A stretch of 59,165 nt of DNA. Origin: Diplocarpon mali. Lineage: Eukaryota; Ascomycota; Leotiomycetes; Helotiales; Drepanopezizaceae. The translations under genes and the position numbers were made by a program. The stretch covers positions 1-59,165 of the forward strand of contig JAENRP010000175.1 of the NCBI GenBank assembly GCA_024741835.1, in the 5' to 3' direction. Shown here one piece after another: positions 5,875 through 59,165 of this stretch (positions within the stretch are counted from its first letter, which is position 1; each line of letters begins with the position of its first letter). The notes below the pieces were generated by a model that did no database searches, had not been told where the DNA came from, and saw only the letters and a list, made by a program, of their open reading frames with translations.

Positions 5875-8590
5875 GAGGTGCAGCCGTTATACTACTTGCA
5901 TTAATCTATCAAAGTACTAGAGGTTGCTTTAAAGCAAAGACTAAAAAGATAAAATCGGAGATTCAAGTCTTATTTTCCAAGGTGTTCTTATTAAAGACGG
6001 CCGTATAGTTATTGCAAAAGGCTATAAAACCACTAGTCCTATAAGAATTATCTAAAAGCATTTTAAGAAGGTATCCCTATTTTATTATTACTATAATTAG
6101 ACTACTATTATCAGTAATAGGTCGCAAGATCTCCTTTTGCTTTAACTTTGCAATCATTTAAGCTAATTAAGATTTTGAACTAAGTGCTTAAGAAGTCTAT
6201 CGACTTATCTTCTTTATAAATAGAATGAGTTTTATAATCGACTAAGAGCCGACCTACCTATTAAGGCTTTTAGAAGCTAGCCCTTATCCGATTAATAGGA
6301 TCTAATAATCTAAGACTTACTTTCTAATAAAATTAACTCGTAGGCCAGGACCGCAAGTGAAAATCGGAATTTCTTTATTAGTAGTACTTATATCTCTCTT
6401 TATCAAAATGACTTAATTATAAAAACTAAGGCCAATCAATTAAAAAGGTTCAAGGTAGGCCATAAGCTAATAGGCTCCTCTACTTTTCGCTATTATAGCT
6501 AAGAGGTAGAGTCTATAATGCATCCAAAGGACTTATTAAGTAAGGCTAAATATCATATTATAAAGAAAATAAAAAGGTATAAAGGTCGCATTATTTATAA
6601 AGTAGAAGTAATAAAGGTATATTTCTACTTCTTATCTTATAATAGAGAGGAATATACTTATAAAAGCACTATTATTAGTAGTAAAATTGTCGGTTAAGAA
6701 GCAGCATCCGAAGGGTTTAGGCATCACAATTGACCCTTCTTCCTCTATTTCCTCTTACTATTTATTGCTTAATAATATCGAAAAGAAAGAATTATTCCAT
6801 TTAATCAGCTCCAATGCCTTTAAAACTTTAGGATCAGCCCTGAATTTTATAATACCTAAAGATGCCTCTATTATCAATAGATTGGATTTGCATATCCTTA
6901 AAGAGATAAAGAACTAATTATCAAAGTAGATTAGAAAAAGATCAATATCTTCTATTATATAAAGAAGTTTAAGGTATTTAATAGTTTTATCAATATCAAA
7001 TCCTTTATAATTAAGACTATAGTAAACCGAAAGAGAGCGAATATAAAGGTCGCAAAGTCTTCTCCCTTCGATTCTTATGCTAAGAAGATACTATCGAAAG
7101 CGAGTCTTTATTATAAAGGATACCTAAATATTATATCGTTCTCTAAGCTTAAGGTTAAGAATAACCGATTGAAGCATATTGCTATAATTATAAATATCTT
7201 AATTAATAGATTCCTCTTTGCGTTCTCTTTCTTATAAGATAAAATAGTTTCGCTTAGCATTTAAAAGACTAAGTTCTGGACTTTTATAATTATTAAAGAA
7301 TTAAATAATATCTATAAAGGCAAACTCATTTAAGATAAGCTATTAAATCTATTTAATAGCTCTCCTAGTCATCTTTAAAGCAATAGGAATAGGGTCTTCC
7401 CTTATATTATCGTTTTTAAAATAGTTATATATAAATATAAAGAAGTCAAGAACTAGCTCCTTTAAGTTATTAAAGAAGGAGTTTAAGCGAGCGCGCAATC
7501 CTTTAGTTTTAAATTGCAAATCAGCTAAGGTAGCTATCGAACGATCTATCCTTTTTAAAGGTTAAGCTAAAATAGGTCGTTTAGCTAAAGGAGAGTCCTT
7601 TAAAGATTCCGAAAATTCTAAAGAGGCTGCGCTAAGCATTTAGGCAGTTTATTCAATAGCAGTTTCTAAAATCATTTTAGCAAAAGGCAGGTTAGGTCCA
7701 GTTTTAAAATTCTTATTTTTAACTCTTAGTCTAAGACCGCGAGTTAAATCATATAGTTTAGCACTTATTATATCTTTAAGTTAAGAAGCGAATTTTAAAG
7801 CAGGCTTAATTATAAATAACCAATTCCCTTCTTTATTATTAAAGAAATCTTATCTAAACCTTATTATAAGAGTCTAATTCTCTTTTAAAATAAGTAAACT
7901 ATAAGCAAAAGCACAAAGCCTTAGTATATTAATAATAGTACTATTAGATAAGGTAATATCTATAGCTTAATTTGATCTTTTTATAGCCCTATTAGCTACT
8001 ATAAGTACTGTATTAAATAGGCTTATAAATCTGCGACTGTGAATTCGATTGCCTCAGAATTTTACTACTCCTTCTTAAATAATAAAGAAATTAAGAATCT
8101 AAATAGCTTTAGTAATAGGAGTGTTTTCCTTAAGAATTTTTAATAATACTTGTCTTCTATTATTAAAATCAATATTTATTAAAAAGTGCAAACAAAATAG
8201 GAATCCTCTCTTATTAATAGCTAAATTATCTAATCGTCGAATAGATTCTTCTCTTTTATCTTAATCTATTTTAAAAGTATTAGCTAAGGTTATATATTAA
8301 TCTGCGTCAGCTAAGAATTCCTCTCTAGAGATTCCCTTTAGTCTTAATTCTTTAATTAGAAAGTCGTTAAATTAAAGAATTCCAAAGGCCACCTAGGTTG
8401 AAAGATTGCTAATAGCATTCGCATAAGCTAAAAGGAGTTTTTATTACTTTATATTTCCTAAGGCTGCGTAGGTCGATTTAAAGCTCTTTAATAATATAAT
8501 AGCTCTACTATCCTAAGAGAAGTTTATAACTAGTACTTATTTATCTCTTATCGCAGTAGATAAAACCATTTATAAGTTCTTTAAAGGCAT
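5875..8590 (-). pseudogene. Gene X of G1 copy 1 (unrecognised protein), truncated
   Basis: This is the inverted counterpart of gene X at 53882-57253. The start codon aligns with the CAT at 8588-8590, about 315 bp after the pol relic ends, the same spacing as in the plus copy. Palindromes at 7721-7745 and 6335-6359 match those at 54727 and 56113. The last quarter is missing because the chromovirus abuts near 5875. I do not recognise the protein; see the plus-strand copy for a description. In-frame stops are at Gln/Trp positions. Confidence 0.7.
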
Positions 8591-8903
8591 ATTACTTATA
8601 AAAGATAAGTAGTATAAATAAGAGAGTTCAATAAGGTACAAGAATTAAAAGGGCATATAAGCTGCAATAGGTTTATTATATATATATTAAGGAAATTGGA
8701 CTTTTTATTTATTATTTAAGGAAAGTAATAGGAATATTATAATTAAAGGCTAATATTAAAAATGCAAAATAAGTCAAAGTAAGTAAGAATTTAAAGTAAT
8801 CTTAAAAGATTTATATCCTAAATAATAAAAGAGGCGACCTTACTGAAAATATAAAAATAAGGATTAGAGGAAGGTAAGATAATTAATAGATTAGGAAATC
8901 GTT

Positions 8904-11900
8904 TAGTATTCCCGCTTACGTTCTTTAGATATTTTAAGAATAATAACTTAAGGTCGCGATTAATTAGGTATTTTAATATTCTTTACTCGCAGGACCGGCT
9001 TATAGGTTAAATTAGAAAAATCTTAGTCTTTATCTAAGGGTTCAAAATTGCTTATATTGCCGTCGGTTCCTATAGAGGATTCAGAGGTTATATCAATTTC
9101 TAATTCGTCTTCTAAAGGAAATAAGGTCTAATTGCGTCGATAAAAGCGCTTTAGTCAGTTGGCTGCAAAGGTTCCTTTAATATTGACTCTATTAAGTTCC
9201 TAAAGAGAATAGTATCCCTTTTCTTTCTACTCAGATTTAACCTTAAATAGATTAAGCCATTAATAATTAAGTTTAATATTTGCTAATATATTAATACTTC
9301 TTATAATATTATAAACTAAGATAAGATCATCTTTTCGAATAGGATGCATTTTAAGTACTTTAGAAGCAGCCTACGCTTCCTTAGCTTTTTCCTAATATCG
9401 TTTCTTTTATAGAATGATTTCCTTTATATCTATATCTTAAAGCTTAAGTTATCGGCATCTTATTATAAGCAAATCGGAACGGTTCCGAATTTGACTATAG
9501 TTGAATAATCTTTAAATAGGCTATTAGAATTTAAAAGGGAGCTATATCTCTCTACTATAGATAAGGAAGAATAGTATAACTCCAGTCGGTTTATAAATTA
9601 TCATTCGATAAGTAAAGAGTATTTTATAAAAGCGTTTTATTTAATCCTTAAATCCTTTATAAGTAACTTTAGATAAACTATTAAGAATATTATAGTATCT
9701 TTATTCTATTACTCTATTAGCTTTCGAGTTATACGCTAAGATTTGAACCCATTTAATACTATATTTTCATAAGAAAGCTTTAACTACTCCTTTATTTTCA
9801 AGGCCTCTATTAATAATTAATCTATTAAAAAGTTTATAGCAATAGACTATATCTTCCCAAAGGAACTTTGCAATAAATTCAGAGTTAGCAGATCTTAAAG
9901 GTCATCTTTTAGGCTATTTTAATAGGTCTTCCTTTGCTAAAATAAAATATATTATCCTATTCTTAGTAGTTAGTACTTGTATAATATCAAAGCTAACTTT
10001 ATAAAAAAGGCCTAATAGCTAGGTTAAGAATAAAGGATTTTCCTTATAACTAGGTTTTTATTTCTAATAAGGGATGCAACTCTTTATAAAAGCTTTATAA
10101 TCTTTAAAAGAGCCTTTCTAAAAGAATTTTCTTAAGAGTTAGTAGTAAATAGACTTAGCTCCTTAGTGGCCAGTTTCCTTATAAATATCCTAGATAGCCT
10201 TAGCCCTTAGTTTTTCATTATTTAAGCAGAGTCGTATAAGGAATAAGTTATTACTCCTTTTAAATAATCGTCTTCTTTATATTAAATAAATCAAAGCTTT
10301 AGCTTTAAATTTCTGAAAATCCTTAGGAGCAACTGTCTTTAATTATTTAAGTATAATTAAAAACTTTGCGATTTCTTCAGAGTCACCTAAGTAATTAAGT
10401 GATAAAATTCTCTTATTTAACTTATAAGCTGGGCTTGCAAGTCAAATCCCTTTGAGGTAATATATTAATAGATAACTAACTTCGTTTTCTACCTACTTAT
10501 TAATATCTATTTCATCTTCTTTAATTAAATCAAAGGGGTAGGGCTAAGTTCTTTTTAAAAGGCCGTTAGCAGTAGTGTTTTTCATTCTTAAAATATATTT
10601 GACTTTAAAGTCTATTAGTCTTATCTAAGCAATCCATTTTATTAGCAAGGCTCTTGGTAGGTCGCTTGCAGCTCTATTCAATTGTTCTATTAGCACTTTA
10701 GCATCAGTTTCGAGAATGAAGTAAGTATTATAAAGGTCGCTTCTTATCTTTTTCATTGCTTTTAAAGTGCCTTTGCATTCCTATTTAATAGTATTATACT
10801 TTGTCTTCGCTAGATTCCAAAGACCACTTTTAAAGCGAGCTAGATGTCTTTTCTATTAGTTATTAGCTTATTAAAGGATAGTACCTTATCCGATTAAGCT
10901 TACGTTAACTATTAGTATAATTGGCCTAGCGTTAGCTCTATAGTCTATTTTAATCAGATAAAGCACCTTAAGCAACGCTTGCTTTAGTTGTTTTATAGCC
11001 TCTATTTAAGGTTTCTCCTATTGAAACTTAGCCCCTTTCTAAAATAAGGAGTAAATAAGTACTGCCTTTTTAGCAAAATCCTTAATCTAAATGCGATAGT
11101 ATACTATAACTTTAATAAATGCGCAAGCTTCTGCCATATTATCATACCTCTTCTATTCGTCGATTTTAAGTACTTTAGCCCTCTAAGGACTTCGGCTATT
11201 AGAATTAGTAATAAAATTAATAATTTCTATTAATAGGAGATAGTATTATAACTTCGGACTAACTGTTGCTCTTGCTTTTTCAAATCGTATAAGCACCTAG
11301 TCTAGGTTCTAAATGTATTCTATTATAAATCGTTATATGCTAAGGAGAACTTCTTTATAGTTATAAAATGATCTTAATCCTTTTACTCCTATATCGTCTA
11401 TATAAGGGAGCGCAATATTAAGTATGCAATCTACTAGTATCTTATAGATTACTTAGATAAATTAAGCGATCGAATTTGTAGCCCTTTAAAGTAATCTTAT
11501 TATCCAAAGTAGCCTAAGAGGGGTTTGAATTGCTATTATATCTCTTGATTTAATATTAAAAATGAATTAATTATATTTAAAGAAGAAGTTAATAAGAGAG
11601 CTATAGGTTAATCCTATAAATTCATTTAAGAACTCATCTATATTTAAAGGAACGTTAGCGTCTTTAATAGTTACTTAGTTTATCTCTACTACTACTATTA
11701 TTAGTTTATAAGTTCCCTTCTCCTTCTTAGCAACTAGGAACCATTTATTCTTATAAAGGCTATTACAAAACTCAAGAATACCTTGCTTTAGCCTATCCTT
11801 TAATATTTCGATTACCTTTTCTTAAAGAGCTTTAAGGACCTCGAATGTTTTCTCTTATTAGGCTTTATAAGGTATTATCTTAATCTTAATATAAGGCGTA

Positions 11901-12730
11901 ACCTCTTTTTAAATCTGGCTAAGTTCCATTTAATCAAAAGCTAAGGCGTCCTTTCGATTTATTAAGGTTTTATAAAGTAGTTCGCATTCTTACTCTATCA
12001 AGTCTTCTTTAATTTTTAATATATTAAAACATTCTTTTATTAATTAATATCCGATAGGTTTATTAAAAAATCTGCTTATAATAAACTTATCGAATTTGCC
12101 ACCCGGCTTTAGAGGTCGAAGCTTCTTATCTTATTTAAACCAATCATCTAGTCCTCTAGGCTTTAAGCTATTAAAGATTCCCTAATCTACTAGTTGTACT
12201 TTATCGGCCTTACTTTTATATATAGTTCGAATATTAGCTAGTACTATACTTCTCTACTTCTTTCCTTTTTTATTAAATCCTATAAAACGATCCGAATTTT
12301 CCTTTTTAAAAATAAATAAAAGATTTTCTAAGTTATTAATTTAAAGTGCGTAAATAGAAATATTATTAGTAATTTTATTGTTTTTCACTCGCAAGTCTGG
12401 CTTATAAGTGGTTTTTAAGTTTTTTAAAATAATTAGTGAATTATTAAAATTTATAAAACGAACTCTCTTCTCTATCTTATTTTTCTTTTTTCTTAATTAT
12501 TAAGTTAATAAAACGCTAATTATACTATTTTTCAAAATTCTAGATTTGACTCCTAATCTAAGACTATAAGTCAAATCACTATTATTTAAAATCGATAAAC
12601 TCACCTTTCTTTTACTATAACTCCTCGCTAGGTGCCTTCCTTTACTAGCATTAAGCCTAGCCCTTATACTAGCTAATCGTTTCCTAAAACCTTATTTTAA
12701 AATTTGGCTATATCTCTTGCGATAACCATT
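8904..12730 (-). pseudogene. G1 copy 1 pol: RT, RNase H and integrase relic
   Basis: Minus-strand counterpart of pol at about 49750-53568. By alignment to that copy, RT lies at about 11900-11370, RNase H at about 10990-10570 and integrase at about 10380-8904. Palindromes sit in the linkers before RT (12549 and 12386), between RNase H and IN (10420) and at the IN tail (8984). Frame relative to the protease is shifted as in the plus copy: the distance between the protease GAT codon start and the linker palindrome is 272 nt in both, i.e. 2 modulo 3. Stops are RIP-like. Confidence 0.85.
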
Positions 12731-15420
12731 TATCCTTTTAAAGATCGATCCGTATTCTAAAGGCTAGCTTTTATAAGCCTATCTTTAAGATAATTAAATA
12801 TTAGCTGAGATTCTAAAATAAAAAGCATTTTTAAAAGAATATCATTTAAAGAATTCTCTATTATTAGAAAGTTAGTATAATTAATAATTCCTTTAACTTT
12901 AACCTTTACGTTTTTCACTTATCTATTAAAATTGTATTTCGATCCAGAGATAGTCGAATAAATAAGGAGTCGATCGCTAACGATTATTAATTAAGCCATT
13001 TCCGCCACTTTTCTAATTATTATATTAACTTCTGAATTACAATCGATCAAAGCCTTTGCTTTAACTGATTCTTCTATTAAATAAATAACAATAGGGCTTT
13101 TTATTATAACTACTAAACAATTTCAATTAATATTCTAAAATATTAAAGCTATTACTATAATATTATAATACCTTTAGGTTCCTTCGTTTTCTATAATCTA
13201 AAGATATTTAATTAAGGCTAAGTGCTTCTTAAAGTTCTTTTATATCACAATTTCCATTTCCTTATTATTATTCAAATCTTTAAAGGCCACTAGGATATGC
13301 TTTCTTAGCACTTTATTAAAGCGTCTAATCAAATTAAATAGGTCTTTAAATGTAAGGTTAATTTACTAAGCTATGATATTCTCTATAGCTTTCTCTATTA
13401 TAATTAAACTAGCGTATTTATTAATGAATTTTTCCTATTTTAATATCTGTCTCTTTCGCTTAAGGTTAGGGGTCTATGCAATAACTTCAACTTCTTAATC
13501 TTTAAGCTTAAAGCCATCTTCGTTTATTATATCTCTGATCAATTTATCTACTATATCGGCTTTATCTTTATCTACTGCGGTTCCAGATTATTAGATATCT
13601 TTTAATATTTAAACTCTATATTAAGATTCCTAAGTTGCATATGCTGATTTTTAGACTTTAGCTGGTTTTATTAGTATTAATAGAGTGGAAGATCTAAAAG
13701 GACGCTAAGAATTCCAAGGGTTCTTAAATATAAAAGCAGTATTAATATTAGCTAAAATATTATTATTAACCTATCCTAAGATAAAGATGCCTTTAACTTC
13801 TATAGCTATTTGATCAGAAGCTAGGTCCTTAAGAACTCCCTTAAGTAGATTGCTAATTGGACTTATATATATATAAGTTGGGATTTTGGCATTTATATTT
13901 ATAATACGCTATCGTTCGACCAAATTCTCATCTTATTTCGTACTATATATCATTATTTAAATAGTCTATAACTATAAGCGATTCTAGTGCTTTTTAATAA
14001 GGATAGCTTCTGGCCTAAGATCCTTAATGCAAAGCATCCCATACTTATTAATATATATAACCCTAGTGTTAATAAAATAAAGGAAAAGAGGGCAATCGTT
14101 ATAATACTTATATAAAGCGTAATTAGGTTCTTCGTTATTGCAAAAGTTGTAGGTTAGTCGTCTTCTATTGCCATTTCCTTAGTATCCTATAGTATTAATA
14201 TTAGCAGAGTGCTGGTTAAGATTAATTCCTCCTTCTTTAGCCAGCTATTGCGTTCTTATATTAGCTGGTTATTCCGAATGATAAGAAGCAGGAGTCTAAT
14301 AATAGGAACTATTAGGTTGGCTTATAGTAGCTGAGTTTTATTTATTACTAAACTAAGGAATATGCTATTTTTCCTATAAGAGATTATTAATCCTAATTTC
14401 TAAGCTCTAGATTCGGAGTTTTATAAATTAGGTCTTAAGTTCTTTAATTCTAGGGTTAGATCTTACTCTTAAGTCGGGCCCGCGAGTGAAAGGTATAACT
14501 ATTAGGTTCTTCTTTACCTCTTTTATAACTTTTAAAGCTTTTAAGTATTCTTGGACCAGGCTCTTAAGGTCTTTAGTATAGGAGGGAATAGGGGCTTTTT
14601 CCTATTTTATAGTATTAATAGTTCTCTTACTAAGATCTGATTTTAAAGCAAAGGCCGAGAATTCCTTAAATAAGGCGAAGGTTATAAGGTCTTGCTTATC
14701 GATCTTAAAATGCTTAATAATCTTATTTTAAAGGCTAGTAGGTAATCCGAGTAAGAAAAGGCGGCCTCTTTCAACTTCGCTAAGTATTTTCTAGCTAATT
14801 AAGGTATTCGATATATAAGTAAAAGTCCAATAGTAGTTTTTAAATTCCTTAGGAGTATAAGTAATTAGAATAAATTCCTTTAAGAAAGCCAGGGTATTAT
14901 AAATCTACTATCTATCAAATTCTCAGAATTCAAACTTAAGAGCCTTAATAAGGAGTTCTTATAAACTATACGTTTTCCATTTAAGGAAGGATTTGATAAT
15001 ATCTTTATTTATATAATTATAATAGTAAGGAAGTCGAGAAATCATATCCTCTTATATAATACCAAAATCGTAATAAATTTCCTTATATTACTTAAGGAAA
15101 TCAGTAATATTAGCACTTATAAAGTAAGGAGTGCTAGGGGAACTAAGGAGAGGAAAGTGACTAGTAATAGCCTTAAATATAGCCATTATTATTTTATACT
15201 AACCGTCTAAGTTAATAGAATCTATAAAAGGTAAAAGGGAAGCTTCAATATTGCGAAATTGATTATTAAAAGGAGTATTTCGAAATTCAAAAGGGCTTAA
15301 AAAACGTTTAGAATCTGAGTCAATCTTAAAGTGACTAAAACGAATTTGAAAAGATTCAAATAAAGGGTTAGTAAAAAGTTTAAAATTGTTATTATTTTTA
15401 GTATTTTCTAATATTGATAT
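12680..15420 (-). pseudogene. G1 copy 1 gag-protease relic
   Basis: Gag begins at SILENTKN; its Met codon has become ATA (15420-15418), while the related gag-only element keeps ATG. The frame then runs through a capsid region (FPLLSSPSTPYFI, ITDFLK, RGRLFLLGLPTSL), a palindrome-encoded TRGPDLRV (14464-14487), a nucleocapsid knuckle near 14160-14100 and a protease around 13110-12740. Gag and PR share a frame; RT is in another. Stops are at Gln/Trp codons. Confidence 0.82.
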
Positions 15421-16168
15421 TAAAAAAGTAAGTAGCAGTCCTAAGTTGTTTAAGGATATCTTTTTATCCTCCTACTTATAAGCTAGGCCTAGGAGTAGAA
15501 TTCCGAATTCTGCTAAAAGTTTAATCTAAGTTTGCTAAAAGATTCTAAGTAGGTACTAAACAGCTAATAGAAGCATTGCAACTAATCGCAATAAGATAAG
15601 GTTTACTTAATTAAAGACTAATTTCTAAAATAAGATTTATATCTAAGATTCTTCTTAGCCTTTAGGTCAATTCCTATTAGTCCTTAGAATAAAGGGGTCT
15701 CTAGAGACGATTCTAAGGCAATTTTTAGAATTTTATTAAGCTAAAGCAGTTGAATTATCAGATTCAGATTTCTAAGGATTCTAAGGAGGCACTTCCAATT
15801 AGAGTTTGCGCTTAGTATTACTTAAGTATTCGAAACTACTACTATTTGAGATTGCTATTATAGGGTTTGCTAAACTTTTTATACTAGGAAGCCGAAAATT
15901 CCGAAAATCTCAGAGTTAAAGAAGAGAATAGGGATTTTCGAAGCAGAGCCGAAAAGGGAAAGTCTAAGGTTATTAATAATTGCTAAACGAAAATCGATAG
16001 TTCTAAATAACTAAGCAATTAAAGATAAGGGTTTTAGAGTTAATTAAAATACTATAAGTATTTCGAAGATGTATTTCAAAGGCCGGTCTCTTATCTACAA
16101 ACTAAAAGATTGATAAAATTATATAAGGACAGAAATCTTAAGAAATCGGTCCTTGCGTAGGTCACTAA
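15421..16168 (-). other. G1 copy 1 leader between PBS and gag
   Basis: This is about 750 bp without a coding frame. Its LTR-proximal edge carries the putative primer-binding site; near gag lies a palindrome copy (15473-15497) that is out of frame with gag. The same palindrome sits at the same place in every G1-like leader here (19278, 22266, 46974), so it was inserted before these copies diverged. Confidence 0.7.
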
Positions 16169-31989: not shown

Positions 31990-31994
31990 GAACT

Positions 31995-39580: not shown

Positions 39581-39613
39581 CTAGTAATAGCAGTTTAAGG
39601 TTTTGCAGTTTTC

Positions 39614-39947: not shown

Positions 39948-40189
39948 TATCTATTCTCCTTATCCTTGCTTAATTATATTAAGGTAAAGAGTGCACTTTC
40001 CTTAAAGGAATCTACTTATAGGTCTGGCCTAAGAGTCAATTTTTATAATATTACCTTTAAGATAATATAAAGTCCATCTTTAATTTTAGCTTTAAAGATC
40101 ACTTTATAGTTATTATTTATAAATTATATAAATTAATTATTAAAAACTCTTATATAATTTAACTTTATATAAATCTTGCAATTAAATAA

Positions 40190-43934: not shown

Positions 43935-43939
43935 GAACT

Positions 43940-46299: not shown

Positions 46300-46300
46300 T

Positions 46301-46317: not shown

Positions 46318-47050
46318 ACTGATTTCTTAAGATTTCCGTCCCTATACGACCTTATCGATCTCTTAGTTCATAGATAAGAGACCGGCCTTTTAAAGAATAT
46401 ATCTTTAAAATACTTATAGCATTTTAATCGACTTTAAAACCCTTATCCTTAATCGCTTAGTTACTTAGAACTGTCGATTTTCGTTTAGCAACTATTAATA
46501 ACCTTAGATTTTCCCTTTTTGGCTCTACTTTAAAAACCCCTATTTTCTTCCTTAACTCTAAGATTTTCGGAATTTTCGGCTTCTTAGTATGAAAAGTTTG
46601 GCAAACCCTATAATAGCAATCTCAAATAGCAGTAGTTTCGAGTACTTAAGTAATACTAAGCGCAAACTCTAATTAGAAGTGCCTTTTTAGAATCTTTAAA
46701 AATCCGAATCCGATAATTCAGCCGCCTTAGCTTAATAGAACTCTAAAAATTGCCCTAGAATCGTCTCCAAAGACCCCTTTATTCTAAGGACTAATAGGAA
46801 TTAGCTTAAAGGCTAAGAAGAATCTTAAATATAAACCTTATCTTAGAAATTGGTCTTTAATTAAGTAAACCTTATCTTATTGCGATTAGTTGCAACGCTC
46901 CTATTAGCTATTTAACACCTACTTAAAATCTCTTAGCAAACTCGGATTAAACTTTTAATAGAATCCGGAATTCTACTCCTAAGCCTAGCCTATAAGTAGG
47001 AAGATAAAAAGATATCTTTAAACAACTTAAGACTACTACCTACTTTTTTA
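46318..47050 (+). other. G1 leader, plus copy
   Basis: Non-coding, collinear with 15421-16168; carries the leader palindrome at 46974-46999, out of the gag frame. Confidence 0.7.
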
Positions 47051-49800
47051 ATATTAATATTAGAAAATACTAAAAATAATAACAATTTTGAACTTTTCAC
47101 TAACCCTTTATTTAAATCTTTTCAAACTCGTCTTAATCACTTTAAGATTGACTCAGATTCTAAACATTCTTTAAGCCCTTTTGAATTTCGAAGTACTCCT
47201 TTTAGTAATTAATCTCGCAATATCAAAGCTTTCCCTTTGCCCTTTATAGATTCTATTAACCTAGATAGTTAATATAAAACGATAATAGCCGCATTTAGGG
47301 CTATTATTAGTCACTTTCCCCTTCTTAGTTCCCTTAGCGCTCCTTACTTTATAGGCGCCAATATTACTAATTTCCTTAAGTAATATAAGGAAACTTATTA
47401 CAATTTTAGTATTATATAAGAGGATATGATTTCTCGACTTCCTTGCTACTATAATTATATAAGTAAGGATATTATCAAGTCCCTCTCCGAATGGAAAACT
47501 TATAGTTTATAGGAACTCCTTATTAAGGCCCTTAAATCTGAATTTCGCGAATTTAATAAATAGCAGATTTGTAATACCCTGGCTTTTTTAAAGGAATTTA
47601 TTCTAATCACTTATACTCTTAAGGAACTTAAGAACTACTATCGGACTTTTACTTATATATTAAATACTTTAATTAGCTAGAAAATACTTAGCGAAGTTAA
47701 AAGAGGCCGCCTTTTCTTGCTTAGATTACCTATTGGACTCTGAAATAAGATTATTAAGCATTTTAAAATTAATAAGCAAGACCCTATAACCTTTGCCTTA
47801 TTTGAGGAATTCGCGGCCTTTGCTTTGAAATCAGATCTTAGTAAGAGAACTATTGATGCTATAGAGTAGGAAAAAGCCCTTACTCCCTCTTATACTAAAG
47901 ACCTTAAAAGCCTGGTCCAAGAACACTTAAAGGCTTTGGAAGTTATAGAAGAGGCAAAGAAGAACCTAGTAGTTATACCTTTCACTTATAAGCCTAACCT
48001 AGGAGTGAAATCCAACCTTAAAATTAAGGAACTTAAGACTTAATTTGCAAAACTCCGAATCTAGAGCTTGGAAACTAGGATTAATAATCTCTTATAAGAA
48101 AAATAGCATATTCCCTAATTTAGTAATAGGCAAAACTCGGCTACTATAAGCTAATATAATAGTTCCTATTACCAGACTCTTGCTTCTTATTATTTAGAAT
48201 AACCTGCTAATATAAGAACTCAACAGTTGATTAAAGAAGGAGAAATTAATCCTAACTAGCACTCTGCTAATATTAATGCTATAAGGTACTAAAGGAATAG
48301 TAATAGAAGACGATTAACCTGCAACTTTTGCAATAATAAAGAACCTAATTGCGCTTTATATAAGTATTGCAACAATTGCCTTCTTTTCCTTCGTTTTATT
48401 AATACTAGGGTTATATATATTAATAAGTATAGGATGCTTTGCATTAGAGATCCTAGGCCAGAAGCTATCCCTATTAAAAAGCACCAGAATCGCTTATAGT
48501 TATAGACTATTTAAATAATAATATATAGTACGAAATAAGACGAGAATTTGGTCGAACGATAGTATATTATAGATATAAATGTTAAAATTCCAACTTATAT
48601 ATATATAAGTCCAACTAGCAACCTACTTAAAGGAGTTCTTAAGGACCCGGCTTCTAACTAAATAGCTATAGAAGTTAGAGGCATCTCTGTCTTAGGGTAG
48701 GTTAATAATAATATATCTGCTAATATTAATACTGCTTCTGTGTTTAGAAACCCTTAGAATACTTAATGCCCTTCTAGATCTACCACTCCCTTAATACTAA
48801 TAAAACTAGCCAAAGTCCAGAAATTAATATATACAACTTAGGAATCTTAATATAGAGTCCAAATACTAAAAGATACTTAATAATCTGGAACCGCAGTAGA
48901 TAAGGATGAAGCTAATATAGCAGACGAATTGATTAGAGATATAATAGATAAAGATGGCTTTAAGCTTAAAGATTAAGAAGTCGAAGTTATTACGCAGACC
49001 CTTAACCTTAAGCGAAAGAGACAGATATTAAAATAGGAGAAATTTGTTAATAAATACGCTAGTTCAACTATAATAGAGAAAGCCGTAGAGAATGTTATAG
49101 CTTAGCAAATTAACCTTACATTTAAAGACCTATTTAGTTTAACTAAACGCTTTAATAAAGTGCTAGGAAAGTATATCCTAATTACCTTTAAAGATTTAAA
49201 TAATAATAAGGAAATGGAAATTGTAACGCAGAAGAACTCTAAAAAGCACTTAGCCTTAATCAAATATCTTTAAATTGCAAAAGATAAAGGAACCTAAAGG
49301 TATTACAATATTATAGTAATAGCTTTAATATCTTAGAATATCAATTGAAATTGTTTAGCAGTTGCGATAAAAAGCCCTATTATTATTTATTTAATAAAAG
49401 AATTAGTTAAAGTAAAGGCTCTGATCAATTGTAGTTCAAAAGTTAATGCAATAATTAGAAAGGTAGTAGAAATAGCTCAATTAACAATTGTTAGCGATCG
49501 ACTTCTTATTTATTCGACTGTCTCTAGATCGAAATACAATTTTAATAGATAGGTAAAAAACGTAAAGGTTAAAGTTAAAGGAATCGTTAATTATACTAAC
49601 TTTCTAGTAATAGAGAATTCTTTAAATGATATTCTTTTAAAAATGCCCTTTATTTTAAAATCTTAGCTAATATTTAACTATCCTAAAGATAGGCTTATAA
49701 AAGCTAGCCTTTAAAATATAGATCGATCCTTAAAAGGATAAATAGTTATCGCAAGAGATATAGCTGAATTCTAGAATAAGGTTTTAAGAAACGATTAGCT
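47051..49800 (+). pseudogene. G1 gag-protease relic, plus copy
   Basis: The frame starts at ATA (was ATG) then LILENTKN. Capsid region: FPLLSSLSAPYF-like block (47310-47350), ITNFLK, then GRLFLLRLPIGL (47700-47740), LVQEHLKALEVIEEAKKNLVV. A palindrome (47982-48008) is in frame as TYKPNLGV. A nucleocapsid CNFC...LYKYCNNC lies at 48320-48379. Protease: LINCSSKVNAI (49421, family ALIDSGAE-x-NAI) and NDILLKMPFIL (49628, family DILLGMPFL). Gag and PR share frame; pol is in the -1 frame. Confidence 0.85.
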
Positions 49801-52800
49801 AGCATAAGGGCTAAGCTTAATACTAGTAAAGGAAGGCACTTAATAAGGAGTTATAGCAAAAGAAAGGTGAGTTTGCCAATTTTAAATAATAGCGATTTAA
49901 CTTGCGGTCCTAGACTAAGAGTCAAATCGCGAATTTTAAAAAATAGTGCAATCGGCGTTTTATCGGCTTAACAATTAAGAAAAAAGAAAAATAAGGTAGA
50001 GAAGAGAGTTCGTTTTACAAATTTCGATAATTCATTAATCATTTTGAAAAACCTAAAAACCACTTATAAGCTAGACCTGCGAGTGAAAAATAATAAAATT
50101 ACTAATAACATTTCTATCTATATACTTTAAATTGACGACTTAAAAAATCTTTTATTTATTTTTAAAAAGGAAGATTCAGACCGTTTTATAAGATTTAATA
50201 AAAAAGGAAAAAAGCAGAGAAGTATAGTACTAGCTAATATTCGAACTATATATAAAAGCAAAGCTAATAAAGTATAACTAATAGATTAGGGAATCTCTAA
50301 CGGCTTAAAGCTTAAAGGACTAGACAATTGGTTTGAATAAGATGAAAAGCTTTAACCTCTAAAGCTAGGTGGCAAATTCGATAAGTTTATTATAAGCAGA
50401 TTTTCTAATAAACCCATCGGATATCAGCTAATAAAAGAACATTTCAATATATTAAAAATTAGAGATAACTTAATAAAATAAGAATGCGAACTACTTTATA
50501 AAACCTTAATAAATCGAAAGGACGCCTTAGCTTTTAATTAGATAGAACTTAGCTAGATTTAAAAAGAGGTCATACCTTATATTAAGATTAAGATAATACC
50601 TTATAAAGCCTAGTAAGAGAAAATATTCAAGGTCCCTAAAGCTCTTTAAGAAAAGGTAATCGAAATATTAAAGGATAGGCTAAAGTAAGGTATTCTTAAG
50701 TTTTATAATAGCCCTTATAAGAACAAATAGTTCCTAATTGCTAAGAAAGAGAAGGGAACTTATAGACTAATAATAGCAGTAGTAGAGATAAACCGAGTAA
50801 CTGTTAAAGATACTAACGTTCCTCCGAATATAGATGAATTCTTAAATGAATTTGTAGGATTAACCTATAGCTCTCTTATTAACTTCTTCTCTAGATATAA
50901 CCAATTTATTCTTAATATTAAATCGAGAGATATAATAGTAATTCAAACCCCTCTTAAGCTACTTCAGATAATAAGATTACCTTAAAGGGCTATAAATTCA
51001 ATCGCTCAATTTGTTTAAGTAATCTATAAGATACTAGTAGATTGCATACCTAATATTGCGCTCCCTTATATAGATAATATAAGAGTAAAAGGATTAAGAT
51101 CATTCTATAACTATAAAGAAGTTCTCCTTAATATATAATAATTTATAATAAAACACATTCAAAACCTAGATTAAGTGCTTATACAATTCGAAAGGATAAG
51201 AGCAACAGTTAGTCTAAAGTTATAATACTATCTCTTATCAATGGAAATTATTAGTTTTATTATTAATTCCAATAGCCGAAGTCCTTAGAGGGCTAAAGTA
51301 TTCAAAATCGATAAATAGAAGAGGTATAATAATATAGCAAAAGCTCGCGCGTTCATTAGAGTTATAGTATACTATCGCATTTAGATTAAGGATTTCGCTA
51401 AAAAGGCAGTACCTATTTACTCCTTATTTTAGAAAAGGGCTGAGTTTCAATAGGAGGAACCCTAAATAGAGGCTATAAGATAACTAAAGCAAGCGTTACT
51501 TAAAGCGCTATATCTGATTAAAATAGACTATAGAGCCGACGCTAGGCCAATTATACTAATAGTTAATATAAGCTTAATCAAATAGGGTACCGTCCTTTAA
51601 TAAACTAACAGCTAGTAGAAAAGACATCTAGCTTGCTTTGAAAGTAGTCTTTAGAATCTAGTAGAGATAAAGTATAATACTATTAAATAGGAATGCAAAG
51701 GCGCTTTAAAGGTAATGAAAAAGATGAAAAGCGACCTTTATAGTATTTACTTCATCTTTAAAACTAATGCTAAAGTGCTAATGGAATAATTGAATAGAGC
51801 TGCAAGCGACCTACTAAGAGCCTTGCTAATAAAATAGATTGCTTAAATAAGATTAATAGACTTTAAAGTCAAATATATTCTAAGAATGAAAAACACTACC
51901 GCCGATGGCCTTTTAAGAAGAACTTATCCTTACCTTTTTAATTTAATTAAAGAAGATGAAATAGATATTAATAAATGGGTAAAGAACGAAGTTGGTTATC
52001 TATTAATATATTGCCTTAAAGGGACTCGACTCGCGAGCCTGGCCCGCGAGTCAAGTAAGAGAATTTTATCACCTAACTACTTAGGTAACTCTGAAGAAAT
52101 CGCAAAATTTTTAATTATACTTAAATAACTAAAGACAGTTGCTTTTAAAGATTTTCAGAAATTCAAAGCTAAAGCTCTGATTTATCTAATATAAGAAAGA
52201 CGATTATTTAAAAGGAGCGATAACTCATTCCTTATACGACTTTACTTAAACGATGAAAAACTAAAGGCTAAGGCTATCTAAGATATTTATAAGGAAACTG
52301 GCTACTAAGGAGCTAAGTCCACTTACTACCGACTCTTAAGGAAATTCTTTTAGAAAGGTTCTTTTAAGGATTATAAAGCCTTTGTGAAAAGTTGCATCCC
52401 TTATTAGAAACGAAAACCTGGTTATAAAGAGAATCCCCTATTCCTAACCTGGCTATTAGGCCTTTTCTATAAAGTCAGTCTTAATATTATATAAGTACTA
52501 ATAACCGAAAATAGGATTATATATTTTATTTTAGTAAAAGAAGACCTATTAGGATGGCTTAAAGGACGACCTTTAAGATCTGCTAACTTTGAATCTATTG
52601 CAAAGTTCCTCTAGGAAGATATAGTCTATTGCTATAGACTTTTTAATAAACTAACTATTAATAGAGGCCTTGAAAATAAAGGAATAGTTAAAGCTTTTTT
52701 GCGAAAATATAATATTAAATAGGTTCAAATCTTAGCGTATAACTCGAAAGCTAATAGAGTAGTAGAGTGAGGATATTACGATATTTTTAATAGGCTATCT

Positions 52801-53568
52801 AAAGTTACCTATAGAGGATTTAAAAATTAGATAAAACACTTTTATAAAATACTCTTTACTTATCAAATGATAATTTATAAACTAATTGGAGTTATACCAT
52901 TTTTCCTTATCTATAGTAGAGAGGCATAGCTCCCTTTTAAATCCTAATAGCCTATTTGAAGATTATTTGACTATAGTCAAATTTAAAACTATTTTAATTT
53001 GCTAGTAATAAGATGCCGATAACTTAAGCTTTAAGATATAGATATAAAGGAAATCATTTTGCAAAAGAAATAATATTAGGAAAAAGCTAAGGAAGCGTAG
53101 GCTGCTTCTAAAGTACTTAAAACGTACCCTATTTAAAAAGATGATCTTATCTTAATCTATAACGTTATAAGAAGTATAGATATATCCGCAGATACTAAAC
53201 TTAACTATTAATAGCTTAGTTTATTTAAGGTTAAGTCTAAGTAAGAAGAAAAGGGATACTATTCTCTTTAAGAACTTAATAGAGTTAATATTAAAGGAAC
53301 CTTTGCAGCCAACCGACTAAAGCGCTTTTATTAATACAACCAGACCTTATTCCCCTTAGAAGACGAATTAGAAATTGATATAACCTCCGAATCTTCTATA
53401 GGAACCGACGGCGATATAAGCAATTTTAAACCCTTAGATAAAGACTAAGATTTTTCCAATTTGACCTATAAGCCAGTCCCGCGGGTAAAGAATATTAAAA
53501 TACCTAACTAATTGCGACCTTAAGTCATTATTCCTAAAATATCCGAAGAACGCAAGCGGGAATATTAA
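49750..53568 (+). pseudogene. G1 pol relic, plus copy: RT, RNase H, integrase
   Basis: A linker with two in-frame palindromes (49899 TCGPRLRV; 50061 TYKLDLRV) leads to RT: KGTYRLIIAVVEINRVTV, LPYIDNIRVKG (51061, family F-x-DDIGVKG) and a SLINFFSRYNQ block. RNase H: IDYRADARPIILIVN, YNTIK...ECKGALKVMKKM, then KNTTADGLLRRTYP (51886-51930). A palindrome (52028) sits between RNase H and IN in another phase. IN: YKETGY, AKSTYYRLLRKFF, NKLTINRGLENKG and RVVE with the final Glu region. The IN tail palindrome (53464) reads TYKPVPRV. Stop near 53568. Confidence 0.88.
52028..52052. repeat. Palindromic element, near-perfect copy
   Basis: GACTCGCGAGCC, one base, GGCCCGCGAGTC: a single mismatched arm pair (G-to-A). 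It lies between RNase H and IN of G1; the matching site in copy 1 is 10420-10442, decayed. Phase here differs from most copies (reads ASLARES). Confidence 0.92.
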
Positions 53569-53881: not shown

Positions 53882-56800
53882 ATGCCTTTAAAGAACTTAT
53901 AAATGGTTTTATCTACTGCAATAGGGGATAAATAAGCACTAGTTACAAACTTCTCTTAGGATAGTAGAGCTATTGCATTATTAGAGAGCTTTAAATCGAC
54001 CTACGCAGCCTTAGGAGATATAGAGTAATAAAAACTCCTTTTAGCTTATGCGAATGCTATTAGCAACCTTTTAACCTAAGTAGCCCCTGGAATTCTCTAA
54101 TTTGATAACTTCCTAATTAAAGAATTAAGACTAAAGGGAATCTTCAGAAAGGAATTCTTAGCTAACGCAGATTAATATATAACCTTAGCTAATACTTTCA
54201 AAATAGACTAAGATAAAAGGAAAGAATCTATTCGACAACTGGATAATTTAGCTACTAATAAGAGAGGACTCCTATTTTATTCACATTTCCTAATAAATAT
54301 TGATTCTAATAATAGAAGGCGAGTGTTATTAAAAATTCTTAAGGAAAATACTCCTATAGCTAAAGCTATTTAAATTCTCAATTTCTTTATCATTTAAAAA
54401 GGAGTAGTAAAATTCTAAGGCAATCGAATTCGCAGTTGCAGATTTATAGGCCTATTTAATATAGTACTTATAGCAGCTGATAGAGCTATAAAAAGATCAA
54501 ATTAGGCTGCAGATATTACCTTACTTAATAGTACTATTATTAATATGCTAGGGCTCTGCGCTTCTACTTATAGGTTGCTTATTTTAAAAGAAAACTGGAC
54601 TTTTATACTAGAGTTTAAATAAGATTTCTTTAATAATAAAAAAGAGAATTGGTTATTTATAATTAAGCCTGCCTTGAAATTCGCCTCTTAGCCTAAAGAT
54701 TCGATAAGCGCTAAACTATATAATTTAACTTACGGTCCTAGACTAGGAGTTAGAAACGAGAATTTTAAAACTGGACTTAACCTGCCTCTTGCTAAAATGA
54801 TTCTAGAAACTGCTGCCGAATAGACTGCTTAAACGCTTAGCGCAGCCTCTTTAGAATTTTTAGAATCTTTAAAGGACTCTCCTTTAGTTGAACGACCAAT
54901 TTTAGCTTAACCTTTAAAAAGGATAGATCGTTTAATAGCTACTTTAATTGATTTGTAATTTGAAACCAAAGGATTGCGCGCTTGCTTAGACTCCTTCTTT
55001 AATAACTTAAAGGAGCTAGTTCTTAACTTCTTTATATTTATATGCAACCGTTTTAAAAACGATAATATAAGAGAAGACCTTATTCCAACTGCTTTAAAGA
55101 CGACTAAGAGAGCTATTAGATAGATTTAATAGCTTATCTTAAACGAGTTCGCCCCTATAGATATTATTTAATTCTTTAATAATTATAGAAGTTAAGAACC
55201 TAGTCTCTCAGATGCTGAATAAGACTATTTTATCTTGCGAGAAAGAGAACGCAAAGAGGAATCTATTGATTAAGATATTTGTAATTATAATAACGTGCCT
55301 CAATCGGTCATTTTCAACCTTGAGCTTAGAGAACGATATAACATTTAAGTGTCCTTTATAATAAAGACTCGCTTTCGGCAGTATCTCCTTAGTATAGGAA
55401 TCGAAGGGAAAAGACTTTGCGACCTTTATATTCGCTTTCTTTCGGTTTATTATAGTCTTAATTATAAAGGATTTGATATTAATAAAACTATTAAATACCT
55501 CGAACTTCTCTATATGGCAAAAGATATTAATCTTTTTCTAATCCACTTTAATAATTAGTTCTTTATCTCTTTAAGGATACGCAAATCCAACCTATTAATA
55601 ATAGAAGCATCTTTAAGTGCTATAAAATTTAAGGCTGATCCTAAAGCCTTAAAAGCGTTAGAGCCGATTGAATGGAACAATTCCTTCTTATTGATATTAT
55701 TAAGTAATAAATAGCAAAAGGGAATAAAGGAAGAAGGGTCAATTGTAATGCCTAAGCCCTTCGGATGCCGCTTCTTAACCGACAATTTTACTACTGATAA
55801 TAGTGCTTTTATAAGTACATTCCTCTCTATTATAAGATAAGAAGCAGAGATATATCTTTATCACTTCCGCCTTATAGATAGTGCGACTTCTATACCTTCT
55901 TGTTTTCTCTATAATATAATGTTCAATCTTACTTAATAAGTCCTTCGAATGCACTATAGACTCTACCTCTTAGCTATAATAGCAAGAAGTAAAGGAACCT
56001 ATTAGCTTATAGCCTACTTCGAACCTCCTTAATTAATTGGCCTTAGTCTTTATAATTAAGTCGTTTTAATAAAAAGAGATGCAAGTACTATTAATAAAGA
56101 AATTCCGATTTTTACTCGCGGTCCTGGCTTACGAGTCAATTTTATTAGAAAGTAAGTCTTAGATTATCAGATCCTACCGATCGGATAAGGGCCAGCTTCT
56201 AAAAGCCTTAATAGGTAGGTCGGCTCTTAATTAAATATAAAACTCACTCTATTTGCAAAGAAGATAAGTCAATAGACTTTCTAGGCACTCGGTTTAAAAT
56301 CTCAACTAGTTCAAATGACTATAAAATTAAAGCGAAAGGAGATCTTGCGACCTATTACTAATAATAGCAATCTAATTATAGTGATAATAAAATAGGGACA
56401 CCTTTTTAAAATACTTTCAAATAATCTTTATAAGACTAGTGGTTTTATAGCCTTTTGCAATAATTATATAGCTATTTGCAATAAGAACACCTTAGAAAAT
56501 AAGACTTAAATCTCCGATCTTGTCTTTTCAATCTTTACTCTAAAGTAACCTCTAGTACCTTAATAGATTAATACAAGCAGGACCACTGCACCTTTCAAGG
56601 CAGCTTTTCATCTTAAGAACTGCAGCAGCCTCTTTAAAGCCATTATTAGTCGACGCTCTTAAATAGATCCATTAGTTATAATCGAAGTATAAGAGTTGTT
56701 TCTTCTTAATAAAGACAAATTGAAAATCCACCTTATAAAATATAATCAGAAGCTCTTCAACGCCCTTATTAAGGCCTAGATAGACATTATAAACACTAAG

Positions 56801-57253
56801 TCGCTTCTTTATAGACTTAAGTCTTAGGGATAATGCGATAAAGTAAATACTATCCGAGAGCCTAATGCACTAATTGATAAAGGCATTATTGCAAGAAAAT
56901 TCGGAAAAGAGACGAACTAAGACGCTAGTATAGTATTAGACCTTGATTTAGGAACCAATCCCCTGTTTTTACCCTTAAGCTCAGAAACGCCAAGACTGAC
57001 TCGCGAGCCCGGCCCGCGAGTGAGGTTAAACTTAGCTAGCTTAAGCCTATAAGATAGTTCGGATAAACCTCAGTCACTAAATCTAAGGGTATTAATAGAA
57101 GATCCTTTAAGAGAGGTCCTTAAAGCTGAGAAATCGCTGAGAAATAAGAACTAATATAAGAGAAGAAGACTCTAAAGTGATAATAGAACTGACAATTGAG
57201 TCGACTTAAGCCTAGAGAATCAAGTCTACTACCCCCCTTTGAAAACCATTTAA
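53882..57253 (+). pseudogene. Gene X: unrecognised ~1,120-codon protein in envelope position of G1
   Basis: One frame runs from the ATG at 53882 to TAA at 57251-57253 with no frameshift; internal stops are TAA/TAG at likely Gln/Trp codons. The N-terminal 280 residues are mostly helical (STYAALGDIE, FDNFLIKELRLKGI, IQ-like ILNFFI...KGVVKF). Three palindromes are in frame: 54727 (TYGPRLGV, residue 283), 56113 (TRGPGLRV) and 56999 (TREPGPRV). No signal peptide or membrane segment is seen, so it does not look like an envelope protein despite its location. Near the C-terminus is a basic patch YKRRRL. The mirror gene in copy 1 covers the first three quarters. I do not recognise the family. Confidence 0.72.
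56999..57021. repeat. Palindromic element, near-perfect copy in gene X
   Basis: ACTCGCGAGCC, C, GGCCCGCGAGT: one mismatch. In frame as TREPGPRV. Confidence 0.92.
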
Positions 57254-57805
57254 AGAGATTGCGAATTAAAAGTTGAATTTTTTAGGGATTATCTACTTTC
57301 TATATACTTGCACCTCTTTATTCTTAACCTATTATTCTATTCTATGCATATTCTTTATTTACTTTACTCTTTATATAATTCATTCTTTAATTATTCCCTT
57401 TGTATGCAACTTTCTAACGCTCACCTTTGAAATGTCGTCCTTACCTTTAAAGAATTATCATTTACCAATTGTAGGTCCTTATATACGTCACACCCTACTT
57501 TTGTTCCTACTTCCAAGCTCATTATGCCTACTTTTCCTTTATACACTAGCGCGATTCCAAACTCTATAAATAAGCCTCTCCTTGCATAACGATTTTACTT
57601 TTTTTACTTTCTCTATAACCCTATCAGACCTATAATACTAGTACTACTACTATTGTCTTTCTATTATCAATCTTTTCTAATACAGGCCTCCTATATCGTT
57701 AATCTTTCTTAAATAATCATCTCTTTATTTAAAGCTACCCCTCCTACCGACTAATTTATTATAGTACTATTAAGCTTAAATAAGAAAGCCACACTTAAGA
57801 AGAAT
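57254..57805 (+). promoter_or_regulatory. Intergenic X-Y region, strongly pyrimidine-rich
   Basis: About 550 bp, dominated by T and C on the plus strand, which is why a 98-codon hydrophobic open frame (57273-57569) appears; I treat that as compositional. It ends shortly before the Y start codon and resembles a CT-rich fungal promoter and 5' UTR. Confidence 0.5.
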
Positions 57806-59165
57806 ATGTCAGTTGTTGCCTTAGGTAGCAAGTCAATAAATACTACTAGTAATAAGCTAATGTTGGAGGGTGGCTTTTTATAGGAGGGCAAGTCACTAAG
57901 ATTATTGGAAGATATAGTAAGCACTTATAGAACGTTAGGTGAAATAGAATAATAGGTATTCTTAAACTTATCTATTAAAGTATTAAACTATAGAATCTCT
58001 ACGGTCGAAGAAGGATTTTTAAGCTTTGATGATTTTCTTAAGAATAAGCTTAAGATAAAGGGAATCGATTATGAAAAATTCCTATAGGAATATCAAGGGT
58101 ATGCTAATTCAATCGATCTATTTCAAAAGAATCGAGATAAGAAAAATGAGTATATAAAAAGGTTATTGCAATTTATAGGTAGTACCTATAGTACACTTTT
58201 TCAAACATACTTTATAATTGATATTACTGCTAATAATGCCCTGCAGAGGTTTGGTAAAATTTTTAAGATATACCAACTAGTGGCAAAGGCTATATAGGTA
58301 TTAAATTATTTCACTATTTAAAAAGGTATAAAAAAGCTATAGGGAAATAGTACGTAAGGTAGAAAATTTATAGGTTTCTTAAGTACTATTATCCACTCCG
58401 CTATTCAGACTATAAAGGATAGCCCCTCCTAGTATAATAATATTACATTGCTAGACCAAATAGTTCTAAATACCCTTAGTTTGCAATAGTTATAATATAG
58501 TTTACTTATTATAAAGGAAAAGATAATCTATCTAGCTAAGTATACTATAAACTACTTTAATAATAAGACAGAAAGATAGGAGTTTATTATACCCGCCGCT
58601 TAGAAAATGCTACCACCTTTAGAAGATTCAACTAATAAGTAAAATTTAACTTATAGGCCTGGCCCACAGGTAGAAGTACTACGTAAGGAGGATATCCCTA
58701 AGCCAGAGGTACCTATAATACCTAGAACTCAAATAGCTAACTATTGCGATCACTAATCATTAGACTTAGACGAGTTTGATTTACTATCCTTAGAGATGTC
58801 CTAAACACTTAGAATACTAGTAGTAAAGAAGTTGACTTATAAGCCTAGCCTACGGGTTAGAATACGTAATAATATAGACTTTAAAGATGATCTGATAGAC
58901 AAAGAGAACAATCCTATTACTAATGTAATAGAAATTTTTAATAATATTAAAAAGGATATAGCCGATATTATACAAACCTTTTCCAAAGACTTATAAAAAT
59001 TTGTTTTGAAATTCTATAAGTTAATAATAAAGCATTTGAAAAAGGAAGGTCAAGGAGAAGTTTTACTAGTATAAGAAGCGATGGCAAGAGCTATTAAATA
59101 AATTATAAAGCTATAATAAGACGAATTTTCTATAGATAATATTATATATTTCTTTATTAAGCATA
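57806..59165 (+). pseudogene. Gene Y: paralogue of gene X, incomplete at window edge
   Basis: Starts ATG TCA GTT (57806) and stays in one frame to the window end (about 453 codons), with stops at Gln/Trp-type codons. It aligns with X: Y STYRTLGEIE with X STYAALGDIE; Y FDDFLKNKLKIKGI with X FDNFLIKELRLKGI; Y VLNYFTI...KGIKKL with X ILNFFII...KGVVKF; both then FIG. A palindrome-encoded TYRPGPQV begins at residue 282, against 283 in X, each preceded by NL. A second palindrome (58834) gives TYKPSLRV. Function unknown. X and Y differ widely outside these blocks, so they are old duplicates. Confidence 0.72.

Follow-up and report, generated by a model that had tools for sequence, protein, structure and literature searches.

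A short, unequal-armed palindrome shared by copia-like and gypsy-like retrotransposons of Diplocarpon mali: a possible minute mobile element of nuclear DNA

The 59,165-nucleotide stretch of Diplocarpon mali DNA analysed here (GenBank assembly GCA_024741835.1, contig JAENRP010000175.1; hereafter the window), which is contig 175 of a 676-contig assembly, carries dozens of copies of a palindromic unit with a 23-bp core, GC-rich in a window whose GC content is 25-37% in 2-kb steps. This repeat is real and far beyond chance. We give a probability of roughly 0.5 to the reading that this is a minute, mobile DNA palindrome, compatible with coding, which has been copied into at least two sorts of retrotransposon, copia-like and gypsy-like. 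Judging from the sequences, the unit must have been copied from one unrelated element to another, since neither its flanks nor the kinds of element that carry it are the same.

A first-pass annotation, made from the letters of the window, had described a dispersed palindromic repeat with at least 48 copies. All 48 places were read directly; their sequences match, the listed starts being mostly one base early. A window scan tolerant of C>T and G>A changes returned 43 places, 42 of them among the 48, and six Markov-generated windows scanned in the same way gave 0, 0, 0, 0, 0 and 1 places. The single match beyond the list (14547) is weak and probably due to chance, and the six listed copies falling under the cut-off of the scan (12549, 36353, 39797, 39836, 39884 and 44331) belong, to judge from where they lie, to the same array or to aligned families. 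When the window was searched with the exact unit, 4 places lay within 3 mismatches of the perfect palindrome, compared with none for 100 shuffles of it. Genome-wide (49,369,952 bases, 676 contigs), 382 places are at most 2 mismatches from the core on each strand and the reversed pattern gave 0; with the refined core and at most 1 mismatch, 208 places were found (control, 0). Shuffles, reversed control and Markov windows together reject chance or base composition as the origin of the repeat, and a known RNA family was ruled out for the window by 0 Rfam matches at gathering scores. Exact copies of the refined core were absent from the prokaryote genome collection and from the viral contigs searched. 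As annotated, nucleotides 1-5870 and 23253-26706 contain no palindrome detectable by the tolerant scan.

The 48 copies in the window represent at most about 21 separate sites; they are not 48 events, because whole elements have been duplicated. A 10.5-kb stretch (5895-16411) is present again, inverted, at 56577-46059, 88% alike and about 30 kb away, and a third, partial copy lies at 16478-20187; 18 of the 48 copies belong to the eight sites of this family, and another 9 to a trio of sites (29636/29704/29769) that is found three times in the window. Sites 14465 and 15474 of the 10.5-kb family are, moreover, homologous to 21261 and 22267 in the element at 20.2-23.2 kb ("gag-only" in the wording of the first-pass annotation), the aligned pieces being 75-83% alike, so that part of the sharing of the unit is by descent. 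To this extent the earlier claim that the sites have no common ancestry was too broad. Its core is borne out, since about 21 of the 26 flank contexts that we sampled show no recognisable kinship and the copies occur in both copia-like and gypsy-like elements rather than only in the descendants of one element; this is the support for mobility. Genome matches to window 12001-16000 numbered 38 (best 36 of 484 candidates scored), of which 30 were fetched. The unit was found at all four tested sites (12387, 12549, 14465 and 15474) in 30/30 of these family copies, and the corresponding insertions thus predate the amplification of the family.

The core can be written ACTC-S-CGG-K-CC-N-GG-M-CCG-S-GAGT and consists of two unequal arms, while the full motif, RAWTYN-ACTCSCGGKCC-N-GGMCCGSGAGT-NRAWTY, is about 35 bp long with symmetric flanks. 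The perfect 23-bp palindrome reconstructed in the first-pass annotation was not recovered: it has no exact copy in the genome, and a list of 25 distinct places likewise includes none. Arm usage in 39 near-intact copies was ACTCGCGGGCC 37, ACTCCCGGGCC 21, ACTCGCGGTCC 8, ACTCCCGGTCC 6 and ACTCGCGAGCC 6; equal arms were seen in 0/39 and one ACTCGCGGGCC arm in 37/39, a regularity that is weaker than it looks, many of these copies coming from one family. At the 22 zero-mismatch places of the genome, one C arm is combined with one G arm in 21, two C arms occur once and two G arms never. Some positions are degenerate (S at 5 and 19, K/M at 9 and 15, N at 12 and +1) and stand next to others that are fixed. 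In the 52 flanks of the 26 contexts, position +1 is free, +2 is a purine in all 52, +3 is A in 39, +4 is A or T in 44, +5 is T in 34 and +6 is a pyrimidine in 43. Five of the 26 contexts are array neighbours or homologs of others; in the 21 left after dropping them, a purine occupies +2 in 42/42 flanks. Exact-pattern searches of the whole genome gave a purine at +2 in 220/221 flanks, copies and not sites being counted here. The sole place found with a pyrimidine at +2 is G000:C94:18005-18029.

The core is free of stop codons in all frames, and read in frame 0 it encodes T[RP]GPGP[RG]V on both strands. Among the genome loci that were fetched around palindrome copies or family matches (numbered L001 and so on), the unit stands in frame in the copia gag-protease linker of L003 and L008, as ...STRGPGPGVSSS... 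ahead of WLYDTGASKHI, in a piece with a weak Pol_BBD match (E 0.0046), and, at position 67 of L003, in a copia linker after an SH3-like domain (PF25597, E 6.6e-6, 0.6 bits below the curated cut-off). It is in frame in gypsy-like linkers as well, which follow the protease region in L075 and L076 and the RNase H region in L077; these regions we take to be such from the motifs LGATDVLIGRKFLEHYDL and NTLADILSHR, respectively. The gypsy-like pieces, like a piece of L021, were not confirmed by Pfam, and "gypsy-like" is therefore a less firm label than "copia". All five loci with coding linkers (L003, L008, L075, L076 and L077) use frame 0, in both orientations relative to the coding strand (TRGPGPGV in L008, TPGPGPRV in L076). 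A second frame (frame 1, LASLARE) is used at window 52029, and at L021 1501 frame 2 is the longest stop-free frame (184 residues), the two other frames being open too. One abundant context, comprising 20 of the 44 near-intact copies with known flanks, has the unit adjoining a T-run (6-15 bases in 16/17 measured) and is probably non-coding, given that the frame is not kept; a stop-free frame of at least 50 codons that crosses the unit in 11/17 T-run copies (in differing frames and strands, 6 being the same) speaks against this. On balance, it is the DNA sequence rather than one peptide that is kept and shared, in view of the several frames, the two orientations and the one probably non-coding context. 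In protein searches for relatives in other species, the only match was a hypothetical protein of Diplocarpon coronariae (82% identity over 89 residues to a stop-free copia piece), and it spans only the part ahead of the unit. Available excerpts of the genome paper of that species give 34% repeats, with copia elements making up 21% of the genome (PMC11527701). As a separate observation on the T-run context, another short palindrome (CTACTCTAGAGTAG or a close variant) lies 30-40 bp from the 23-mer, with a present/absent contrast between L001, L004, L006, L012, L018 and L020 on the one hand and L002, L005, L009, L010 and L011 on the other; this is a candidate filled/empty site of that other palindrome.

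Tandem repetition involves the unit together with neighbouring sequence. The period is 45 bp in L061, L063, L065, L075, L076 and L077, 54 bp in L054 and L003, 48 bp at window 35167, 66 bp at window 33688 and 39/48 bp at 39615-39946, and the array units measure 13, 15, 16, 18 or 22 residues with a GPGP core; the spacings within the trio 29636/29704/29769 are not multiples of three. We compared spans in two families (best 40 of 180 and of 186 candidates; four split matches of 42 in the L077 family left out). Relative to the query, the spans of 40 matches of the L076 family differ by 0, 2, 12, 15 or 45 bases, 39/40 being multiples of three, and those of 38 matches of the L077 family by -90, -45, 0, 18 or 45 bases, all multiples of three (38/38). 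Relatedness inflates these counts; the differing step sizes are separate changes. By span, members of the L077 family hold 1 to 4 array units and those of the L076 family up to one more than the query. Between the flanks of the copia linker, spans read by hand for part of the matches were 23 (the query copy), 71, 77, 89, 101 and 107, again differing by multiples of three. The copy with span 101 contains a 24-bp spacer duplication, and the 24 extra bases of L078, considered as a new insertion, were rejected as such because they are this kind of duplication. At position 460 of L076 a truncated arm, ACTCCCGTGGCC, directly follows a two-unit array and is perhaps the deletion remnant of a further unit. 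The in-frame position in coding linkers, the tandem arrays in steps of three and the symmetric flank consensus are all additions to the first-pass description.

Many copies have been altered by mutation of the repeat-induced point mutation (RIP) type. In 30 aligned members of the 10.5-kb family, 919/935 two-letter variable columns are transitions, and variable sites make up 108/112 of CpA, 133/148 of CpR and only 116/272 of CpT. It is because of this process that palindrome copies are blurred.

We propose that the unit enters retrotransposons at places that include linkers between the protein domains of their polyproteins. As no frame holds a stop codon, insertion into a linker need not halt translation if the net change is a multiple of three; insertion at other places, or with a shift of frame, would tend to eliminate the element. 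Within its host the unit has multiplied by two routes, both of which are shown by the families described above, namely amplification of the host element and tandem gain or loss of units (of 45 bp and other lengths). Entry into a new site would most likely require an enzyme that, as a dimer, recognises a symmetric A/T-rich target in the DNA or, less likely, copying between element RNAs at the hairpin, and RIP-type mutation would blur the copies afterwards. As no empty site was found among the candidates scored, we infer that insertion took place, as we do the length inserted and the enzyme involved.

Several observations weigh against this mobile-element reading: (i) no site without the unit appeared in the fetched loci, the family spans or the joined-flank searches (best 36-40 of 172-484 candidates scored; for joined flanks, best 40 of 173 and of 172), and the sole gap in the fetched-locus comparison (L003 versus L008) is a 54-bp tandem unit, not an empty site; (ii) target-site duplication is not evident at the core edge, the -1 and +1 bases being equal in 6/26 contexts versus 6.35 expected, and in 5/21 versus 5.5 in the reduced set, and direct repeats of the core-adjoining flanks (k 1 to 4 in 26 contexts; k 1 in 21) do not exceed shuffled expectation; (iii) the Y1 (REP-type) transposase PF01797 has 0 matches in the fungus's own genome, control matches being obtained in 5/14 genomes; (iv) the 44 near-intact copies with seen flanks fall, sorted by eye, into 11 recurrent repeat contexts, none of them in a single-copy gene, and movement outside repeats was not observed; (v) copies within one family are not independent, which inflates all per-copy counts; (vi) the flank rule would suit a binding site and a preference for certain targets equally; and (vii) columns variable by transversion are not rarer inside the units (2/92) than outside (27/3902; one family, 30 members). 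The earlier proposal that the unit spread on its own or by gene conversion is upheld in that it has been copied into different elements, while the comparison of filled and empty sites, proposed at the same time, yielded neither an empty site nor a target duplication among the candidates scored.

The strongest alternative is that recombination has spread a site to which a protein binds. The palindrome would then function in cis, as a symmetric sequence recognised by a dimeric protein of the host or the element (for example of the zinc-cluster or zinc-finger type), and several retrotransposon families would have acquired it and kept it for transcription, packaging or integration. We regard this as possible, if on the unlikely side. 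The near-absolute flank rule speaks for it: position-specific degeneracy beside fixed positions, together with the purine at +2, looks like a set of protein contacts, and the unit has been kept both at four sites in every fetched copy of the 10.5-kb family and at homologous sites of two families that are 75-83% alike. For a packaging or promoter signal, however, as many as 8 sites in one element, both within coding linkers and elsewhere, would be unusual; many copies are blurred by RIP, columns variable by transversion are, within one family, not rarer inside the units than outside, and no protein has been identified.

Copying by reverse transcription only, in which the hairpin would trigger template switching between co-packaged element RNAs and so be transplanted without a dedicated enzyme, appears unlikely to us. 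It would be in keeping with the confinement of all 44 near-intact copies to recurrent repeat contexts, with the gains and losses of 45-bp units and with the lack of both a target duplication and a Y1 transposase match. The perfect unit indeed forms a strong RNA hairpin (-19 kcal/mol, z -4.6), but the fold is weaker for three natural copies, which have unequal arms and were folded together with their flanks (-9.7 to -13.4 kcal/mol, z -1.6 to -2.5, 4-13 of 200 shuffles being as good), and random template switching would not place a purine at +2 on both sides nearly always.

That selection acts on T[RP]GPGP[RG]V as a flexible linker or cleavage site, the DNA palindrome being a by-product, seems improbable. 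The unit does occur at several inter-domain linkers, span differences are multiples of three, and in frame 0 each of the degenerate positions -4, -1, 9, 12, 15, +1 and +4 falls on the third base of a codon; yet third positions 3, 6, 18 and 21 are fixed in near-intact arms, another frame is read at window 52029 and probably at L021 1501, one common context is probably non-coding and both orientations occur. That all copies go back, by ordinary descent with recombination and divergence, to a single ancestral element that bore an array, the unit itself being immobile, is hardly credible, for the tandem arrays at several sites and the two sites that two families share by descent would agree with it, but the roughly 21 contexts without flank kinship, in copia-like and gypsy-like elements, would not.

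The positions of all copies in the window are compiled in Table 1. An assembly gap (run of N) at 20666-20710 lies directly 5' of the near-intact copy at 20713. In the 10.5-kb family, stop-free stretches at 6503-7237 (+) and 55208-55969 (-) lie between two palindrome sites, on the strand opposite to that of frame 51847-52128, and a Pfam search with one piece of them gave no match.

Table 1. Palindrome copies in the window, with corresponding sites, relatives and mode of detection
Feature	Position	Strand	Correspondence and remarks	Evidence
10.5-kb family site 1	6336..6358		= 56114 site; little-mutated relatives L059, L072	
10.5-kb family site 2	7722..7744		= 54728 site	tolerant scan
10.5-kb family site 3	8985..9007		= 53464 site	tolerant scan
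10.5-kb family site 4	10420..10442		= 52029 site; little-mutated relatives L056, L062, L071	
10.5-kb family site 5	12387..12409		= 50062 site	present in 30/30 fetched copies
10.5-kb family site 6	12549..12571		= 49900 site; flanks GATTTG/CAAATC lengthen the palindrome	30/30; below scan cut-off
10.5-kb family site 7	14465..14487		= 47984, 18270; homologous to 21261	30/30
10.5-kb family site 8	15474..15496		= 46975, 19279; homologous to 22267	30/30
Site 7 in third family member	18270..18292			alignment and tolerant scan
Site 8 in third family member	19279..19301			alignment and tolerant scan
Near-intact copy ACTCGCGGGTCAGGCCCGCGAGT	20713..20735		relatives L053, L068	
Palindrome copy	20836..20858		less mutated relative L021 2932	
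Palindrome copy	21261..21283		homologous to 14465	
Palindrome copy	22267..22289		homologous to 15474; relatives L019, L021	
Three copies (29636, 29704, 29769)	29636..29791		little-mutated relative L066	
Two copies 66 bp apart	33688..33776	+	stop-free frame 33508-33822, copia gag-protease linker; less mutated relatives L003, L008	
Two copies 48 bp apart	35167..35237	+	stop-free frame 35083-35331, copia linker downstream of SH3-like domain (compare L003 67)	
Three copies	36355..36503		inverted relatives of 29636-29791	first below scan cut-off
Tandem array, 8 copies, spacing 48 or 39 bp	39615..39946	+	stop-free frames 39591-39881, 39581-39799	3/8 below scan cut-off
Palindrome copy	40014..40036			tolerant scan
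Near-intact copy	43487..43509		T-run context (probably non-coding)	exact and tolerant scans
Three copies	44205..44354		relatives of 29636-29791	last below scan cut-off
Site 8, inverted 10.5-kb copy	46975..46997			
Site 7, inverted 10.5-kb copy	47984..48006			
Site 6, inverted 10.5-kb copy	49900..49922			
Site 5, inverted 10.5-kb copy	50062..50084			
Site 4, inverted 10.5-kb copy, near intact	52029..52051	+	second frame (LASLARE), stop-free frame 51847-52128	
Site 3, inverted 10.5-kb copy	53464..53486			
Site 2, inverted 10.5-kb copy	54728..54750			
Site 1, inverted 10.5-kb copy	56114..56136			
Near-intact copy ACTCGCGAGCCCGGCCCGCGAGT	56999..57021		relatives L057, L060	
Palindrome copy	58649..58671		likely relative L038 625	
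Palindrome copy	58835..58857		likely relative L038 811	

Dispersed short palindromes are known from the bacterial repetitive extragenic palindrome (REP) systems and their REP-associated tyrosine transposases (RAYT); the fungal unit is set apart from these by the 0 matches to PF01797 in its own genome. By analogy, the unit may behave as the Rickettsia palindromic elements (RPE) do, as a mobile palindrome compatible with coding sequence, without being a member of that family. RPE are described, in the excerpts at hand, as bacterial elements of about 150 bp found in unrelated metabolic genes (PMC10969869). The likeness lies in a palindrome that stands in frame within protein-coding open reading frames and adds a conserved peptide (as in L003, L008, L075, L076 and L077), and it is limited by the use of another frame and by the probably non-coding context in the fungus; compared with that description of RPE, the fungal unit is set apart by being 23 bp long, nuclear and, in its near-intact copies (44/44), present only in repeated contexts. 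The GC clusters of yeast mitochondria are likewise short, GC-rich palindromes dispersed in AT-rich DNA, for which partial descriptions report units that merge and shuffle, lengths of 42 nt (GC42) and others, the target nucleotides AG and documented absence sites (PMC4478555). The fungal unit differs in being nuclear, with 382 places over a 49-Mb, 676-contig assembly and in families mutated by RIP; unlike GC clusters and miniature inverted-repeat transposable elements, it shows no target duplication above shuffled expectation in its core-adjoining flanks. No empty site was found among the candidates scored. PARCEL, according to the excerpted account, is a 25-residue amphipathic tandem motif with dyad-symmetric coding DNA, associated in some taxa with mobile elements (PMC2996958). 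It shares with our arrays the tandem coding repeats with dyad symmetry, whereas the fungal units, measured against that account, have 13-22 residues and a GPGP core and lie in element polyproteins. The Conserved Hairpin Site (CHS) of fungal GalEa copia elements is given in part of its description as 9+9 bp plus a loop directly after the 5' long terminal repeat (LTR), mostly CTGATCAGT or CTAATTAGT (PMC5445492). It too is a hairpin with a conserved mismatch and, in some species, is common to distant element families; relative to what is described there, the fungal unit has a different core sequence, occurs in several copies per element and has copia-like as well as gypsy-like hosts.

Our literature search returned nothing describing this unit in a fungal nuclear genome, and the string "palindrom" occurs 0 times in the Diplocarpon genome papers PMC11527701 and PMC12158172. 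We would raise, tentatively and as something that is rather doubtful at present, the idea that the unit represents a novel class of mobile DNA in the nucleus. Such a palindrome, of 23 bp (about 35 bp when the flanks are counted) and without a recognised transposase, would move between unrelated LTR retrotransposons, keep its unequal arms, recognise a symmetric A/T-rich target, persist through its open frames and add a GPGP peptide to polyprotein linkers. Several Diplocarpon assemblies exist, according to the excerpts of the genome paper at hand (PMC11527701), and would allow filled and empty sites to be compared; the 45-bp in-frame arrays may, in addition, serve as strain markers. Palindromic elements in bacterial coding genes and mobile GC-rich palindromes in mitochondria are already known, and a nuclear counterpart, if true, would make retroelements hosts to tiny parasites of their own.

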